Of a stretch of 20,163 nucleotides of DNA, positions 610 to 19,126 are shown one piece after another. The DNA is taken from positions 1 to 20,163 of the forward strand of contig JAKSYS010000832.1 of the NCBI GenBank assembly GCA_022925895.1, written 5' to 3'. Below the pieces are notes generated by a model. It saw only the letters and a program-made list of their open reading frames with translations. It was not told where the DNA came from and ran no database searches. Positions within the stretch are counted from its first letter, which is position 1. Each line of letters opens with the position of its first letter. This DNA comes from Fragilaria crotonensis. Lineage: Eukaryota > Bacillariophyta > Fragilariophyceae > Fragilariales > Fragilariaceae. The position numbers were made by a program, and so were the translations under genes.

Positions 610-3600
610 TTAAATAATGTTGAAAACTTTCTTGAGCTTGACCACAAGGCGCCAGTCCTCTGTTTCCAGCTTGTCCTTGAAGTTCTCTTTTAATGCGTCA
701 ATTGAGGCACGGGTCAGAGTTGAATACAAGCTGTGGGAGGCGTCAAACTGACGGCCGTAGGTAATGTTTGGATTCGACTCGTTCACAATTTTGACAGCAA
801 CCGACATTCCCTTGCGAGCGGTATCTTGCTCTCGTCCGTTGCTCTCAATTGACATTACTTTGCCAACATGGAGACCACTAAGGGCAGGGACACACAGGGG
901 TGTGCCAACCTTTAAGATTCCTTCGACAACTTCGCACCCGACGATGATTGGATCCTTTTGATTGAAGACATGTTGTGGGAGAATCTTGATGATACTAGGG
1001 AAGACAGCGATCCTGAAGGATCATGATAGGAAAGGAGTGAGCAATACAACAGCAGCAGCGACGCCATCGCCAACCCGAATCTCACTTACTCAGCAGCTTC
1101 TGCACGTCTCTTTTCACTTAATTCATCCATGAATCTCGTAAATTGATCGAACAGATGATAGATGATGTCAGCGGTGAAAATTCTGACATTCATCTCCGCG
1201 GCATGTTCTCTGGCTTCCTTCTCGACCTCAACGTCGAATGCTAGGATGGTGGCAAACTCGGGCATGCCCTTCTCATTCATGATGGAAATCTTCGTCACAT
1301 CACGCTTGTGGACGGTTCCAATACCAATGGCACTGACAGGGATCGGCGGCTTGGTCTCTTCGCGCAAGAATTGTAATAGCGCCTCCAAGGCACCGAGAGT
1401 CGATGCTTGAACCCTGACACCCTTTTTGTCTGTGCTAAGCTTAGCCTTCAGCTCTGTCAAGTCCGACATGACTTCGGACTTAATATCTTCCTCTTCATCA
1501 TCAGGACCCACCACCATAACTGGTGTACCAGCCATTACCTTGTCTAGGTTGTTACCGATTACCTTGACACCAAGCGCCCCTTTCACCTTCTTGTGATGGA
1601 TGTACTCGGATTTGATGCGCATTTCACGACTGGGAGGGGGAGTAAGCAGCCCGCGAATTTCGGTGACAATGGGTCCATCGAGCGTGCAAAAGACAGCTTT
1701 ATCACCTTCCTTCAAGTACCCGTTCACGACAAGTACGTCCACCGTCATACCAAGACCATCGATAGCCTTGACTTCGAGTACGGTGCATTGAAGATTGGCG
1801 TGCCACATCAGCTCCTTCCACACCTTTTTCTGTGCCATTTGACATAACAGCAGAAGCACATCCTGAACACCTTCGCCGGTGACACCCGAAGTCGGAACTA
1901 ACGGAATAAAGTCAGTGCTCTCCCAGTCATCCTCTCCCATTTCCCAATACAAATTTGAATTAACTCCTTGTTCCATGAGTTGCACCTTGGCATCTTGTGT
2001 GCGGGAGCGGAACTCCTGTATGGTTCCCTCAGGTTGCTCCTTTAAGGCGTCGCGAATAGGCGTATCTTTGCACGTCTTCCACGCGTAACACCGATCGACC
2101 TTGTTCAAGGCAACCACGAACGGAACGTGGCGGGCAACCAACATGTTCAAACTCTCTATCGTCTGCTGCTCAAGACCGTGCATCAGATCGATGACCAGAA
2201 TGGCAACATCACAGAGCGAGGACCCACGAGATCGGAGGTTTGTGAAGGACTCATGCCCCGGTGTATCGATGATTAGCATTCCAGGCACAGTAATCTCGAA
2301 CTTCTCAGTGGCATTGAGTTTTTGTGTCTGAGTTTCTAACGTGGACTTCTCGAAGAATGTAGCGCCGATTTGTTGGGTAATACCGCCAGCTTCGCCTTCT
2401 TGGACATTTGTTTTTCGAATCTTATCTAGGAGGGTAGTCTTTCCTGTATCGACGTGTCCCATGATTACGACGACTGGACATCGAAGATCATCGCGAGAAC
2501 GAGCATCAAGGTTTGCTTTTTCTTGTTCAAGCCGTTTTCTTTTTCCCTCTACACGCTTCATTTCAACAAGTTGTGCCTGGTAGTTCAGCTCGCTCTGTGC
2601 CGCCTCCATCTCGGCACGCTTCTCAGCCTCGATTCTATCGCGCTCAGCACGCTCCAGACCAAGTTGTCGCAATCTCTCTTGTTCTGCTTTCTTTTCTTTT
2701 TCGATCAAGTCCTCGTCATCATCTTCGTTGATTGTGACCTTCTTGAGACGTTTCGTCAGATCTTTGAACTTGTCATCGTCACTGTCGGAAGCATCCCAAT
2801 CATCACCAGAGCCGTCGTCTGCGTCCCAATCGTCGGCATCGTCTTCCAATTCTGGCTTTTCATCTTCCATTTTCGAAACTGATACAGGCTTCACAGGTGC
2901 CTTGAGTGGCTCCACAGCGTCATCATCATCAGCTTCGTCCTCCCAGTCGTCTGGCGCGTCGTCCTCTTCCTGCTTCTTGGTTTCTTCCTGTTTACGTTGT
3001 GGCCCACGCCCCTTTCCTTTCTTTCTTGTCTCGTAGACTACTTTTTGCTTCTTAGGTGCCTCAACTTCCTCCGTCGATTCTCCTTGTTTCGCTTGGCCGT
3101 CTGTGGGAAGCATGCCGGCTAAGCGCATCGCTTCCAGACGCTGTTCCGTCAGCTTTGCCTTCTGCTTCTGAGCTTTGGTCATGTAGGTTCCTTCCTTCTT
3201 CTGGCGTTCCACCTTTTCACGTTGCTTTTGTTTCTTTCGTTCCCTTTCCTCTTCTCTCAAACGCTCCTCCTCTTCCTCCTTGCGGCGTTCTTCGTCTATT
3301 CGGGCCTGTTCTTCTTCTTGCAATTTTCGAATTCGTTCTTCTTCTTCTTGTTGTTTGCGGAGACGTTCGGCAACCAATCGACCGGCTGCTGATGGCTACA
3401 CGGAAAATCGTCATGCAAAAGCACATAGAGTCACACAAGTATGCAATGGATTAAGACACGCGAGGTTAGTTTCAACATCGTGGAAGTGGCATTATTGAAC
3501 CCATTCGCCACGACATGACAACAAATCTCACCTTTTTGGCGGCAGGAGCCTCATCCCCACCAGCCTTGTTGGCTGGCTTCTTCTTTTTCTTCTTCTTGTT

Positions 3601-4716: not shown

Positions 4717-5607
4717 TTAAAACCATTCTGGATCGGATCGAACGTTGACGGCTACAAAGTTTTGTTGTGTCCGAAGAATGCGCATGCGCTCGTCCAGAAA
4801 GAGGATCCTAGCTTTTCCAAAGGGTGCGGTCAAAGGTCCTTCGATAAGCAACGGTGCTTGCTGTAGTATGCTAACCGGCAGTCCGTTGGTTTGAAGGGCA
4901 TCAATCCACGCCGCTGGGTCTGCTGCAATTGAAGCGCCATCCTTATTGTTGCCATCGTCCGCAACGAGCTCAATACCCGACACATCCAAATTCAAAAGTA
5001 GTGGATCCGTCGGAGATGCGGTCGCCTTCGTACATACCTTTTGCAATATCCGCGATTCAGACGTTCCTGAAAACGGCAAGAAATCCGCCCATTCAGGTCT
5101 TTTCCATTCAATCACATTCTTGACGTAGGGTGGAGTGCAGTCTTGACCAATGCGTCCCAGTTTGGCGGTTGGTATCGATGCTAATGAGGTTATATCAGGT
5201 GCATCAGTATATACCAACGTCCATTTGCCGCAAATGTTGGGTCCGGGTATGTAGGTTGTCGTGTCATAGTATGGCGAGGCGGGTTCCGTTGTTGGGTTTA
5301 ACGCAGCCAACTGGTCAATGATGGCAATGGCTTCTTGCCGCTTGGAGCGAGATGCGTCGAATCCACGATTTGTCACTTCACCCAGGCTGAGGATCTCCGT
5401 TTGGAGACGAAGAATCAACTCCGACTCTGCCGTCGCTTCTTGATCATCAACGATTGATGAGGTAGAACTGAGAGGTCGATTGAGGACAATGCATCGTTCC
5501 TTGCTCTGGTTACATGCAATAAAAGACTGGACAGGGGTCAATATGCCGAGAAGGAGAGTGGCAATTAACATGGTCACTGCTGTGCTCGTTCTTGTCGTCA
5601 TGGACAA
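4717..5607 (-). CDS. Plastid lipid-associated protein (PAP/fibrillin family)
   Basis: Single-exon gene of 296 aa. PAP/fibrillins are lipid-binding proteins of plastoglobules and thylakoids, linked to stress and lipid or quinone handling. The family signature is visible: LNPTTEP (about 103-109), the lipocalin-like start CGKWTLVYTDAPD (126-138), GRIGQ (151-155), and the C-terminal strand pair ARILFLDERMRILRTQQNFVAVNVR (266-290). Residues 1-28 form a hydrophobic signal peptide ending VQS, followed by F29. This is the diatom motif for targeting across four plastid membranes, so the mature protein should be plastidic. Residues 30-60 would be the transit region. The gene is divergent from the methionine-rich gene at 5909, with about 300 bp between them. 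The exact fibrillin subclass cannot be told from sequence alone. Confidence 0.85.
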   Translation of the reverse strand: MSMTTRTSTAVTMLIATLLLGILTPVQSFIACNQSKERCIVLNRPLSSTSSIVDDQEATAESELILRLQTEILSLGEVTNRGFDASRSKRQEAIAIIDQLAALNPTTEPASPYYDTTTYIPGPNICGKWTLVYTDAPDITSLASIPTAKLGRIGQDCTPPYVKNVIEWKRPEWADFLPFSGTSESRILQKVCTKATASPTDPLLLNLDVSGIELVADDGNNKDGASIAADPAAWIDALQTNGLPVSILQQAPLLIEGPLTAPFGKARILFLDERMRILRTQQNFVAVNVRSDPEWF

Positions 5608-6971: not shown

Positions 6972-9009
6972 TCATGTCGACTCTTTGGGTCCGTCTGGAA
7001 TAGGGGTCCATCCATCCAATCGATGTCTCCACTGCAGCATAACCAACATAACGAAACCTAGCCCAAAGAGGCCCGCCACGAGCGTCATGGGATGAACAGT
7101 GGGAGGAATGAAGCCCAAATCCGAAATCTTATCAGGCTGGTCGTAGAGGATGGGATCAAAACCTTGATGCGAAAGACAGTGAGGGCCCGTCCAACCTACA
7201 AAGCATTCACATTCCTTGCCTGGGCTGCATCGACCACGTTTGGGACCGCCGCAGGCACCTGCTGATTCATCGATCGCTTGCGTATTACAAGCTCCTCGCC
7301 CAGTTTGAATTCCTTTGAGGGGATGCACCTGTTGAAGGGAATGAAATAGTTAGCACACCAATGGCGAACACACGGGACAGTTTATAGGGAGCAAGACGTA
7401 CATCATCAGCAGTCTTGTAGAGCTTCTCATGTGCCTCGATAAATTTCCTTGTTGGTCGTTCAGGGGTAGAACATCCCACTTTTTGCATTTCGTTCGTTGG
7501 GTCTTGGTACACCCTAACCCAATTGATCTTGTACTCCGGCGGACCTTCAGCATTTGTCACCATATCACAGAAGCCTTCCGAGAAACCACATGTGTCTTGC
7601 CACCTCGTGGATCTACACCTATAGTTTTTGCATGGACAAGCGCCAGGGCATGTTCTGGGGAAGCCCCATTGTTTGGATACGGCGGTATTGAGGAGAATGT
7701 ACATGGGCTCAGATGAAATTTCTGATCCTGCGAGGATGGAAAAGTCAGTTATGATTCATCTGCTGCGGATGCATCATGACATTCATACGCGATATGCATG
7801 CTTACCTAAATCCGCCTTCACAACTCCGGTGCCATTAATGGATAGCACAAGCTCTCCGTCAAGGTACCATCGCAGATATCCATCTGTTTCATTCGATGGT
7901 AAGTCCCACTCTAATCGATAGACATGAGGCTTCGCGAAGTAGTCTGCATCCAGCTGTCGATTGAAACTAATAGCATCACTCCAATAATCCTGTCGCGCTG
8001 GATCGAATTCTCCTTTGAAGCTGTTGTAGTTGCCGTAGAAGTTAATATTCAGTGAAGAGTTTGCACCGCCCTTAAGCCCCTCATACCACTGTCCTGGTCC
8101 AGGCCAATTTCCGTCACCCGGTCGATTTGCCGGTCTACCGGGCGCCACTTGGTACGATGCGCTCATGAATGGTTGGCCGACGGATGATTGCAAAAAAGGA
8201 CCTTCATTTGCCCGCGTCGGTCCAGGTTGTACTTCAAATATGTCAATCTCTGGCGCCCCACGGCCCAGTCTCTTCTCCATCCCGTAGTGAGCAATGTTGG
8301 CACACCCGCTAATCAATTGCGCGGTCCTACTTTTGGTCGTGCACGTCGTTGAACTCCATGGCCACACGTGTTCAGATGAGGCAACGTAGGTGTGTCTGGC
8401 GAGGTTCCCCAGCATCCAAAACGCTGGCCAGAGTCCCCCAACGTCGTGTCGGCCCGGCAGGATGGCTTCGGCTTCGACAATACCGCCCGTGAAGCAAAAT
8501 TTATTCCAAGACTGTAACATGGCCGATCTAAAGTGTTTGGTAGTGTGCGTGTTCTGTCGTTTGACATCGTCATATCCAATGACACTAGTATCGGCAGCTT
8601 CTGTGGTAATGACAAGTTCACCATCGGCGTTGGTGACGGCATTTTGTGGACTGTAATAATGCAGTGCATCGTTGGTGTAATCGTTCTTATCGAGCGCAGT
8701 CCATCTAGGATCAGATCCATCTTCAAAGGTCCGACCGGGTGTGTTGAATTCATCCGAGAAAACAAGTTGAAACGTCTTGGTGGTGACGGTTGGTATAGCG
8801 GTGGGAGTTGAAGACGGTGACGCCGATGGATATTCGGTCCAGTTCGCGGTGATGTTGACAGGAGCACGTGTTGCTGAGGGTTTCGGATCGTTGCGGATTC
8901 TCGGTACATAGGAGTCTGTACTAAGAGCATCCAAGGGTGTGTCCGGGTCGATCCAATCCGCGGCGGCGAATGGCATTATCGCGAAACACAATATTCTTGC
9001 TCCCCTCAT
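6972..9009 (-). CDS. GH16 / SKN1-KRE6-type 1,6-beta-transglycosylase with EGF-like module and C-terminal anchor
   Basis: I read complement(join(6972..7328, 7402..7727, 7806..9009)), 628 aa, introns 78 and 73 nt (donors GTAAG and GTACGT, acceptors GCAG and ACAG). The start is the ATG at 9009; the open frame extends to 9087 only through a TTG. Residues 1-18 (MRGARILCFAIMPFAAAD) are a signal peptide. The catalytic domain shows LVFSDEFNTPGRTF, SWNKFCFTGGIVEAEAILPG, LWPAFWMLGNL and the nucleophile/acid motif EIDIFE (254-259), then SEISSEPMYILLN across intron 1. Exon 3 adds a Cys-rich EGF-like module (about 524-561, ending GWTGPHC) and a membrane segment (about 591-610) with a short basic tail. This family adds beta-1,6 branches to beta-1,3-glucan; in diatoms the product is vacuolar chrysolaminarin. 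A type I protein with its active site on the luminal side is predicted. Confidence 0.88.
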
Positions 9010-9420
9010 GGTTTTGATTGGGTACGCGTATAAGATATTGCGGTTGCAAGATTCGAAGCTGTGAAGAAGGTAAACGCGTTGGCCCAACGATCAGGTTAAA
9101 GAAAGGGATCAGCTTGACCTTCGTAATCTCGATGAAAAATGAAGCGATTGGATCGAATCTACCTTCCGCGTACCTCTGTCACGCGTGGTCAAGACTTCGC
9201 GGACTTTGATTGGTACGAACGTCGTTGTTGCAATTGATTCTGCTGCGAATAGGAAGGGAAACCGCCTCCTCGTTATTCCTTGATAGATTCAGAACTACTC
9301 AAGTAGAAAACTGATGACAATGATCTACTGAGTACTCGTACTCAGTAACAATCATCAAGATTCAGAAGTTCAAACCTTCATGCATTTGATATGGGCATAC
9401 CAGGTGGTTTCAATTGGCGA
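9010..9420. other. Spacer upstream of the GH16 gene
   Basis: This stretch holds the promoter and 5' untranslated region of the minus-strand GH16 gene and the flank of the retrotransposon. No gene is seen. The one clear structure is a perfect hairpin at 9326-9347. Composition is ordinary compared with the GC-rich sequence that begins near 9420-9450, which is why I place the left edge of the retrotransposon about there. Confidence 0.45.
9326..9347. repeat. Perfect short palindrome (hairpin)
   Basis: TACTGAGTA (9326-9334) and TACTCAGTA (9339-9347) are exact reverse complements separated by CTCG; counting the C-G pair, the stem reaches 10 bp. A weaker outer pairing exists between TGATGA (9312-9317) and TCATCA (9352-9357). 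It lies about 320 bp upstream of the GH16 start codon. Role unknown. Confidence 0.6.
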
Positions 9421-16378: not shown

Positions 16379-19126
16379 ATGAACCCATCCAAGTCTCTGC
16401 TCTTTGGACATTCGTTGTTGTCGGTACTGTCAAAAACGCTGCTGACTTTACTCTTGATGGCAAACCCTGCACACGGATTGAATCACATGCTCGGAGTCCG
16501 TTGCTCAGCTTTTCGCAGATTTTCTCGACCAGTTTATTTATCCATGACCAGGATTCCTTCCAATGAAGAACTAGTCGCCCGACGTTTGGAGGTGGCACGT
16601 GAAAAGAAACTAGCTCGGCGGCAAGCAATTCAGGAGTCGCATGATCGCAACATAAAATTCAAACGCATGCTCCATAGCGACGCGAACTCATCACAGGGCG
16701 AAGGCTTTCAAATACCGAGTCTTTACTCTCTTAAGCTGTCGGTTTGCCCAGAACTTCGAGATGAACTCAAGTTGAACGGAAGAGAAAAGAGAGGGCGAGT
16801 CTTTGTCGAAATGGGGAGCGACGCGAGCCGAACGTTGAAGGGTCTCAAGATGGAACTTCACTCCTTCTTCCGAGTCTTGCGGAAGAGCAGTTACCTTCTC
16901 GAAGCGACAATTCCAAAGGTCGACGACAATGGATTGATCGTTAATGATGTTGATGTCTGGAATGATCTGAATGATGCGTGGAAGATTGAATCAGATCAGG
17001 ATGTACTTCGGACATTTTCGGCTGCGGACGAGTTTTTCGAAGCCCATCAGGACAAGCTGAAACGTCCATCATTGCTCCTGTACGTAGCCAAAGACCCCAA
17101 TGCACCTCCTCCGGAGCCCAGCCCCACCTATCTGGAGAACTTGCCCGATCCAGCCGCCACAGAGTCGATGACCATGCTGTCATTCTACGCATTTCCGCCC
17201 GATACTATCAGAAATCCTGAAGACTTTGCGGTGAGTTTGAGAAAATTGTGGAAACCCTTTAATGCCTTGGGCAGAGTCTACGTTGCACAAGAGGGTGTCA
17301 ATGCCCAAATGAGTGTCCCAACGAATGTGTTGGAAAATTTCATGGAGTGCTGCCGCTCCGTTCCAGAGCTCGGCGAATGGATGGAAAATGGAGTTAATGT
17401 TGATCCAAAACCTTTGTCAGTGGAGGAATTCGCCACCGCAGGCGTCCCTGTCAACGGAAAACCTGCACCTCCCTTCCGAAATCTTCACATCAGAGTCCGA
17501 AATCAAGTTGTTGCCGATGGTCTTGACAAGCCCTTGGATTGGCAGTCGGCAGGGTATGACATGCCGCCCCTTGAATGGCACGAGAAGTTAAAGGAGGCTC
17601 GCGAGCAGCAAGAAGCTGGACTGTTGGCTGCTCCTATCCTCCTTGATTGTCGCAACAAGTACGAAACAGACGTTGGACGCTTTGAGTTGGCCGAACCGTT
17701 GGGTACGGAAAACTTTCGTGAGAGCTGGGATGTCATAAGGGAACGTCTCGCCGATACCCCAAAGGATGCTCCTATTATGATGTACTGCACTGGTGGTATC
17801 CGATGCGTCAAGGTGGGTGCCTACGTGACACAAGAACTGGGCTTTACGAATGTGAGTCGATTGGCGGGAGGCATCATCGCCTATGATCGAACGTTAAGTG
17901 AGAAGGCTCCTGATTCAGAACCATTGTTCAAGGGAACAAACTTCGTCTTTGACGGACGCCTGGGACGTCCCATCACCGAGGACGACTTCGGAAATTGTGT
18001 CACATGCGGTTCCGAAACGTCGTTGGTGAGTAATTGCTTGAATGACAATTGTCATCAGCGCATGATTCAGTGTGAAGCGTGCAAGGCGACCTTTTATGGC
18101 GCCTGTTCCGATGCATGCAAACAACGTATCATAAATGGAGGCATGATTCCACGCATGAGTGAGGCTACGGACCAACAAGCGAACATTGCTTCTGAATCAA
18201 GCGAGGTCATCCGTTTTGAAAATTTGGAAGAGTACAGTTCCGGTCACTCGTCTCCACCACCGTCCTTTTTTCGTGAGGTTGAATTCAACACGAAGCAATT
18301 CATGCCAACAGGGGCTCATATGGTGTCCGGAGCTGCCCAGGGTCGATGGTTGACACAGTTGGCCTCCATGACAAGGGAAGGTCGTATCTTGGAATTGGGC
18401 ACTTTCACTGGGTACGCCACGGCCTGTTTCTTGGAGGGTGCCGCCAACGCCGGCTTTGCTGTAGGATACTCTGGGGTGGGTGGACGAGATGGTGGTCCGT
18501 TCGTCATGTCACTGGAACGCGATGCGAGAGCTATCAACATCGCAGTGGCGCATCTCCGCGTAATGGCTGAAAATGGGGTGTCAGAGCAAGGAGCCGAGGC
18601 AGCCTGTGCACTGCGAGTCAGCGGCAAAGATCTTCCCGTGGTTGTTGAAGATAGCGTGACATTAGCCTACAATGGAATCGCGGGATGTGAAGTGATCCGA
18701 GTTACCGATGCTCTCGCGACTGTCGAGGCCATGGTCGCTGGCACGGGAGAGCTCAATCCGGCTCCCTTTGATATGGTTTTTGTGGACGCTGACAAAACTC
18801 GTCTACTCGAATATGCAGAAGCTCTAATCAGCAACGATCGTATCCTGAAAAGGGGTGGGTTGATTGTTGTGGACAACGTCTTGTGGAAAGGCTTGGTGCT
18901 GGAAGCTAATACAGGAGAGTTCACGCCAGATAATGATGACAACGATAGCAACAGCGGCAGTGATGATGATGGTAGCAACAATGACGGCGCAGCCCGCAGG
19001 GGTCGTCGCGCGCGTAAGCTAGCGATGAAGATGCACAAGTTCAACAGCGCGATCGTCAAAGACACTCGCGTTGAGGTGGTTGTGCTGCCTATGCGAGATG
19101 GTCTGAGTGTAATTCGAAAAAGGTAG
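16379..19126 (+). CDS. TrhO (UPF0176 rhodanese) fused to a TrmR/COMT-type O-methyltransferase; predicted tRNA U34 modification enzyme
   Basis: One uninterrupted 915-aa frame. The start is the ATG at 16379; the frame extends only to a TTG at 16367. Residues 1-33 (LLTLLLMANPAHG at the end) form a signal-like peptide, followed by an Arg/Ser-rich stretch, fitting plastid targeting. Residues about 60-250 are unrecognised. TrhO part: MLSFYAFPP (266), VYVAQEGVNAQMS and FRNLHIRVRNQVV, then a rhodanese domain with LLDCRN (about 420) and active-site YCTGGIRC (Cys470), then a Cys-rich zinc module (about 540-585). OMT part (about 625-915): ILELGTFTGYATAC (670-683), FVDADK (metal-ligand Asp803) and VDNVLWKG, with an acidic Asp/Ser/Gly insertion before the last two strands. 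TrhO hydroxylates tRNA U34 to ho5U; TrmR (YrrM of Bacillus) methylates ho5U to mo5U. Both steps in one chain is an inference from the domains. Confidence 0.87.
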   Translation: MNPSKSLLFGHSLLSVLSKTLLTLLLMANPAHGLNHMLGVRCSAFRRFSRPVYLSMTRIPSNEELVARRLEVAREKKLARRQAIQESHDRNIKFKRMLHSDANSSQGEGFQIPSLYSLKLSVCPELRDELKLNGREKRGRVFVEMGSDASRTLKGLKMELHSFFRVLRKSSYLLEATIPKVDDNGLIVNDVDVWNDLNDAWKIESDQDVLRTFSAADEFFEAHQDKLKRPSLLLYVAKDPNAPPPEPSPTYLENLPDPAATESMTMLSFYAFPPDTIRNPEDFAVSLRKLWKPFNALGRVYVAQEGVNAQMSVPTNVLENFMECCRSVPELGEWMENGVNVDPKPLSVEEFATAGVPVNGKPAPPFRNLHIRVRNQVVADGLDKPLDWQSAGYDMPPLEWHEKLKEAREQQEAGLLAAPILLDCRNKYETDVGRFELAEPLGTENFRESWDVIRERLADTPKDAPIMMYCTGGIRCVKVGAYVTQELGFTNVSRLAGGIIAYDRTLSEKAPDSEPLFKGTNFVFDGRLGRPITEDDFGNCVTCGSETSLVSNCLNDNCHQRMIQCEACKATFYGACSDACKQRIINGGMIPRMSEATDQQANIASESSEVIRFENLEEYSSGHSSPPPSFFREVEFNTKQFMPTGAHMVSGAAQGRWLTQLASMTREGRILELGTFTGYATACFLEGAANAGFAVGYSGVGGRDGGPFVMSLERDARAINIAVAHLRVMAENGVSEQGAEAACALRVSGKDLPVVVEDSVTLAYNGIAGCEVIRVTDALATVEAMVAGTGELNPAPFDMVFVDADKTRLLEYAEALISNDRILKRGGLIVVDNVLWKGLVLEANTGEFTPDNDDNDSNSGSDDDGSNNDGAARRGRRARKLAMKMHKFNSAIVKDTRVEVVVLPMRDGLSVIRKR

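Follow-up and report, generated by a model that had tools for sequence, protein, structure and literature searches.

A candidate one-chain route to mo5U34 in a diatom protein joining TrhO-like and O-methyltransferase domains

The closest described relatives of the gene studied here are the fusions of yceA with trmR that Sakai et al. (2019) named in Phytophthora sojae, Phytophthora ramorum, and Phaeodactylum tricornutum, three species called bacterial in the accessible part of the paper (PMC6599085). Like our gene, they join TrhO and a YrrM-type methyltransferase, and the fusion of P. tricornutum is presumably its orthologue. The fusion was one of the reasons why these authors tested yceA (later TrhO), and in their view the TrhO homologues of eukaryotes suggest an xo5U-type modification there (PMC6599085). 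The accessible text of that paper says nothing on the function or location of the fusion, on a PB1-like domain, or on its residues. As far as the available parts of the sources go, ho5U is attributed to both bacteria and eukaryotes in a review (PMC7694415), a survey of coconut lists ho5U34 together with a TrhO homologue predicted to be in the chloroplast (PMC10298058), and RNA of Synechocystis, a cyanobacterium, was found to contain mo5U (PMC12860351). Our searches of the open-licence literature turned up no case of mo5U in a plastid, none of mo5U made by a TrhO-methyltransferase fusion or of a test of the fusion product, and, under these terms, no paper on TrhO in diatoms.

Both the fusion and eukaryotic ho5U have thus been published before, but, within our searches, not the production of mo5U by the fusion. 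The joining itself had been named in 2019 (PMC6599085), and the JGI name of several relatives, "predicted sulfurtransferase/predicted O-methyltransferase YrrM", pairs both activities. Relative to the accessible parts of the earlier work, the new elements are a PB1-like domain, a presequence pattern, an analysis of residues and charges, a fit to the plastid tRNAs, and the observation that the name TrmR is not yet justified for the methyltransferase.

On balance, we lean towards a bifunctional tRNA wobble-uridine enzyme that would take U34 to ho5U34 and then to mo5U34 on one chain, most likely in the plastid. The TrhO part would use O2 and the rhodanese loop CTGGIRC to make ho5U34, and the C-terminal metal- and SAM-dependent methyltransferase would then methylate the 5-hydroxyl without a change of tRNA. 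In the plastid, the Ala, Pro, Thr, Val, and Ser(UCN) boxes are each read by a U34 tRNA only.

One open frame for two predicted enzymes

The window, i.e., the whole stretch of DNA analyzed, comprises 20,163 nucleotides of contig JAKSYS010000832.1 of Fragilaria crotonensis (GCA_022925895.1). The gene is one open frame from ATG to TAG without internal stops (Table 1). This diatom-type nuclear gene encodes a single long chain in which a predicted tRNA-hydroxylating enzyme is linked to a methyltransferase. A Pfam search at E 1e-3 returned four families, each above its own curated cut-off: UPF0176_N, Rhodanese, and Rhodanese_C, in the order of TrhO, then Methyltransf_3 (E 4e-25). Together with the sequence, this bears out the initial description of a complete UPF0176/rhodanese/Zn module with CTGGIRC, followed in the same frame by an O-methyltransferase with motif I, DADK, and DN. 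The approximately 260 residues preceding UPF0176_N go beyond that description. They comprise a presequence-like start, in which reading by eye suggests AHG/L and CSA/F as sites of cleavage, then a long helix, and a domain that we name PB1-like only, since PB1 was not among the four families found. We infer that this domain probably brings chains together.

Table 1. Features of the fusion gene, in positions of the window
Feature	Position	Strand	Evidence
Whole ORF, TrhO-like + O-methyltransferase fusion	16379..19126	+	915 aa; open frame, Pfam
Presequence-like N-terminal stretch, residues 1-61	16379..16561	+	hydrophobic core; pLDDT <50 for 1-56
Long helix, residues 62-100	16562..16678	+	predicted structure
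PB1-like beta-grasp domain, residues ~113-245	16715..17113	+	
UPF0176_N (TrhO N-terminal domain), residues 265-377	17171..17509	+	Pfam, alignment, conservation; contains R372, R374
Rhodanese domain, residues 405-502	17591..17884	+	Pfam
Catalytic loop CTGGIRC, residues 470-476 (= E. coli C200-C206)	17786..17806	+	sequence, alignment
Rhodanese_C cysteine-rich (presumed zinc) module, residues 518-581	17930..18121	+	Pfam; eight invariant cysteines
Class I cation-dependent O-methyltransferase domain, residues 612-915	18212..19123	+	
SAM-binding motif I ELGTFTG, residues 672-678	18392..18412	+	sequence
VDADK, residues 802-806, presumed first metal ligand D803	18782..18796	+	sequence; D803 in 97/97 rows
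DNVLWKG, residues 832-838, presumed metal ligands D832 and N833	18872..18892	+	sequence; each 97/97 rows
Acidic low-complexity insert, residues 846-872	18914..18994	+	pLDDT <50 for 850-872; variable in alignment
Arginine-rich helix RRGRRARKLAMKMHKFN, residues 873-889	18995..19045	+	predicted helix; net-charge comparison

A protein search with the fusion gave 217 matches. Among the 120 listed, 115 have both PF12368 and PF01596, and five (P0092, P0100, P0107, P0110, and P0116) are without the methyltransferase family. The domain order, which the first-pass annotation proposed to seek in other algae, is present in diatoms (Amphora, Seminavis, Nitzschia, Cylindrotheca, Fistulifera, Stephanocyclus, Mayamaea, Epithemia, and Thalassiosira among the matches listed) and in the bolidophyte Triparma. 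At least seven of the two-family entries come from MMETSP transcriptomes, and an eighth, P0023, bears an MMETSP name in EukProt. These transcript-derived entries carry both families in one protein. A wrong merging of two genes into one has a negligible chance, and for practical purposes this artefact is ruled out by the single open frame, the two-domain homologues, and the transcriptome entries. The two-domain fusion is far from chance. A second search, with seven of the most divergent members as queries, gave 1381 matches, and the names among the 120 listed are the same groups plus an Alexandrium label, from which the spread beyond diatoms and bolidophytes is not readable. The fusion labelled Alexandrium tamarense, a dinoflagellate (P0075), ranks amid diatom sequences and may represent contamination or a mislabel.

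The TrhO-like part

The fusion protein shares 34% identity with E. coli TrhO over an alignment of 323 columns, in which the numbering of the E. coli sequence agrees with the published residue numbers. In the E. coli enzyme, C200, T201, G203, and R205 are essential and the basic residues K112 and R114 are also needed, according to the accessible part of the study (PMC6599085). The four loop residues correspond to C470, T471, G473, and R475, each found in 97 of the 97 aligned relatives, while K112 is replaced conservatively by R372 and R114 is matched by R374. Six of the seven CTGGIRC residues were counted, with the same result in every row. The catalytic and tRNA-surface residues of TrhO are thus conserved, and the best structural match is a TrhO-tRNA complex. 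Compared with TrhO (E. coli YceA and B. subtilis YbfQ, PDB 9j5o), the fusion has in common UPF0176_N, the CTGGIR of Rhodanese, the Rhodanese_C cysteines, and the basic strand residues; it differs in being a nuclear gene with a long N-terminal extension and a C-terminal methyltransferase. It also scores 153.2 bits with the NCBIfam TrhO equivalog model, below the curated cut-off of 170; for that reason we use the name TrhO-like and do not class it as an equivalog of this model.

This low score, and the name of predicted sulfurtransferase that annotation pipelines give to relatives, would fit an ordinary sulfurtransferase in place of a hydroxylase. We consider this very improbable given the full set of three TrhO families, the identity to the E. 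coli enzyme, the retention of the essential residues, and the top structural match. Six-frame searches of the 62-Mb genome, which intron-split genes could escape, gave no match to the CmoB family (PF08003) or the U32 TrhP family (PF01136), so that no competing ho5U route was seen. The same type of search, with the same reservation on split genes, revealed six further TrhO-like places. One of them (L003 1132-3561, contig C875) joins a TrhO-like part and an RNA pseudouridine synthase (PF00849, E 3.6e-23) in one frame, so that this genome has two fusions of TrhO with enzymes that modify RNA. The five others are the ORFs L002, L004, L005, L006, and L007: L002 is short and plain, without a Rhodanese_C match, L007 has an RRM match and L004 a Mib_herc2 match, both below cut-off.

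The methyltransferase part

The methyltransferase had been described as TrmR-like, which holds in part. The PF01596 fold and the metal ligands D, D, and N are present (D803, D832, and N833, a role that we take from the OMT family), and B. subtilis TrmR/YrrM (PDB 5zw3 and 5zw4) also shares with the fusion the K of DNVL[FW]KG and the basic helix before the last strands. However, the fusion has DADK where the four TrmR-type chains compared have DAAK, and for this reason we do not file it as a TrmR. It further differs from TrmR by RDGL instead of GDGL, by inserts, and by the fused TrhO. The profile scores of SynOMT, LiOMT, SafC, and the caffeoyl-CoA OMTs 5kva and 1sui are all above that of TrmR, and the best PDB profile match is the Synechocystis OMT 3cbg. 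In the structure ranking, SynOMT, LiOMT, SafC, and caffeoyl-CoA OMTs are also nearer than TrmR, with two plant caffeoyl-CoA OMT chains among the top structural OMT rows. These enzymes share the PF01596-type fold and the DADK motif with the fused methyltransferase. The genome has one other PF01596 match in a six-frame search, which split genes may escape: an ORF with an LDHDK motif, by which we judge it presumably COMT-like. Synechocystis combines this best profile match with the reported mo5U in its RNA (PMC12860351, as accessible), and SynOMT-type enzymes may act on ho5U34 tRNA.

We placed the domain in trees with TrmR and caffeoyl-CoA OMTs, as the first-pass annotation had proposed. Its claim that the enzyme is not of caffeoyl-CoA type is weakly supported: one clade with the plant caffeoyl-CoA OMTs, of which there were three chains, is weakly rejected (AU p 0.041 and 0.029). 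For TrmR, the two trees differ. In the first, where 3 of the 56 bacterial rows (<180 aa) were dropped, the fused methyltransferase falls outside TrmR, with an AU p of 0.436 for one clade; in the second, where 11 of 81 rows were left out, the two group together at 94/89, with a long-branch warning. Kinship with TrmR is thus neither established nor excluded by these trees. Grouping with Bacteroidota gave AU p 0.205 (Sphingobacteriaceae rows) and 0.394 in the second tree, and the OMTs of Pelagibacter-like OMT-TrhO pairs as source gave 0.098. RDG[LI] is common to the fused methyltransferase and the Bacteroidota rows possessing the motif, and the neighbour genes of three Bacteroidota loci, inspected by eye, gave no functional clue. 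In sum, the trees and AU tests established no caffeoyl-CoA, TrmR, or Bacteroidota parent. Annotations of YrrM type cover several unresolved methyltransferase lines and call for caution.

The fused proteins carry a motif like RRxRRxRKLA before a conserved FN, with a net charge of +4 to +7 in 14 of 14 and of +7 in F. crotonensis; K837 is also conserved. The corresponding values are +1 to +4 in TrmR-type chains and +2 and +3 in plant caffeoyl-CoA OMTs, whereas SynOMT (-3), LiOMT (0), and SafC (-1) are without the basic helix. The comparison covers 81 rows, two without a DG motif and one without an FN-like motif, and a second N shifted the scoring window in 5zw3, P0121, L019, L033, L043, L052, and 2hnk, among others; read by eye, the helix of 5zw3 (TrmR) is at about +3. 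The helix may be an RNA-facing surface of the fused enzyme. The bacterial locus rows are mostly negative at this position: of the 51 with a score, 40 are below zero, 2 at zero, and 9 above it (maximum +4), and among seven scored OMTs linked to TrhO in bacteria, five have a negative value. The bacterial OMT-TrhO pairs do not support the basic helix as a general mark.

These pairs consist of an OMT gene directly preceding TrhO, an arrangement found in 8 of the 56 pattern-recruited bacterial loci, all eight alphaproteobacterial; several of the 56 end at contig ends, and misses are possible. The Pelagibacter-like pairs bring a related OMT next to TrhO, but as separate genes, with the OMT first, and mostly without the basic helix. 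We then sampled 289 genomes of Alphaproteobacteria evenly, with the OMT of L061 as query: 116 had a match at 1e-3, and for 95 of these the match was at least as good as 1e-20, the remaining 21 not entering the co-occurrence count. TrhO (UPF0176_N) was found in 101. Both occurred in 25 genomes, for 33 expected (odds ratio 0.55, p 0.036, n=289), and were adjacent, by coordinates, in three of these 25, once divergently; as some genomes are fragmented, adjacency may be undercounted. UPF0176_N was not found in any of three further genomes carrying related OMTs. Hence, the gene pair exists but is no rule in Alphaproteobacteria, and the lack of a positive association weakens operon linkage as general support. 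Candidatus Shikimatogenerans (L035 3890-4522, L064), with chromosomes of ~184-195 kb, retains a related O-methyltransferase, and searching its two genomes gave no UPF0176_N.

Several of these results would also fit a TrhO part making ho5U34 next to a methyltransferase that acts elsewhere, on another RNA position or on a small phenolic or catechol, the fusion merely co-localizing the two. They are the rank of other OMTs above TrmR, the tree position that changes between trees, the lack of general TrhO linkage of the related alphaproteobacterial OMT, and the scarcity of the basic helix in TrhO-linked bacterial OMTs. Against them stand the conserved helix and K837 of the fused proteins, the rejected caffeoyl-CoA grouping, and the retention of the fusion across diatoms and bolidophytes, and we regard a substrate of this kind as unlikely. 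Synthesis of mo5U34 from ho5U34 on one chain is plausible, as the TrhO loop residues are kept, the metal ligands are invariant, and the arginine-rich helix is as in TrmR. Its odds are slightly lowered by the missing helix in most TrhO-linked bacterial OMTs and by ho5U being already listed for eukaryotes. In all, this is a genuine and conserved fusion, suggestive as to function and of a kind noticed in 2019, and it makes a reasonable case for one-chain mo5U34. For the xo5U-type modification suggested in eukaryotes, it points to a place to look and to the methylated product to expect.

Compartment and plastid tRNAs

Diatom plastid-targeted proteins have a signal peptide followed by small-x-small/F. 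Of the 97 relatives in the alignment, 32 were dropped for shortness or lack of a Met and 27 for lack of a hydrophobic 10-mer (the F. crotonensis protein itself, below the threshold, is one of the 27), leaving 38. The motif follows the hydrophobic core in 24 of these 38, which are kin and not independent, for a mean of 9.5 in shuffled sequences (sd 2.6, maximum 18 in 1000). By this sequence criterion, the pattern of the relatives fits plastid-type presequences.

Phytophthora is without a plastid. The fusion reported in this genus (PMC6599085, accessible part) would suit the same two reactions taking place in the mitochondrion, or in both organelles, as would the arginine-rich N-terminus with RLYST of the Triparma fusion and the lack of a signal-peptide-like core above threshold in F. 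crotonensis. However, none of the 1000 shuffles reached the count of presequence motifs observed in the relatives, and a mainly non-plastid site seems to us improbable.

A plastid site would also suit the tRNA set. The plastid contig, of 150,396 bases, has a U34 tRNA only for each of these five boxes (Ala, Pro, Thr, Val, and Ser(UCN)); a Leu(UAG) tRNA was not found there, though it may have been missed. Within the U34-only boxes, 35-54% of the codons are NNU (104 ORFs and 29,719 codons, including unannotated ORFs and repeat copies). These boxes are where an xo5U base would help, although to our knowledge plant plastids manage without one. The earlier suggestion that mo5U may occur in an algal organelle is compatible with this set. 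If true, it would help explain how a plastid with U34-only tRNAs for five family boxes reads all four codons, and the coupling of wobble modifications could be studied in a single protein. We put forward tentatively the fuller statement that diatom plastids make mo5U34 with a single PB1-assembled hydroxylating and methylating enzyme, in which a DADK-type line of ho5U methyltransferases would stand beside the DAAK TrmR.

Elsewhere in the window, genes on the reverse strand encode a translation initiation factor IF-2 type protein (1089-3377) and a PAP_fibrillin protein (4720-5607), two types that are often organelle-related, and an SKN1/KRE6-type beta-glucan synthesis protein (7786-9087). On the mitochondrial contig (C880, L068-L069; 107,979 bases), cox1 was matched in four separated pieces and is therefore probably intron-bearing.
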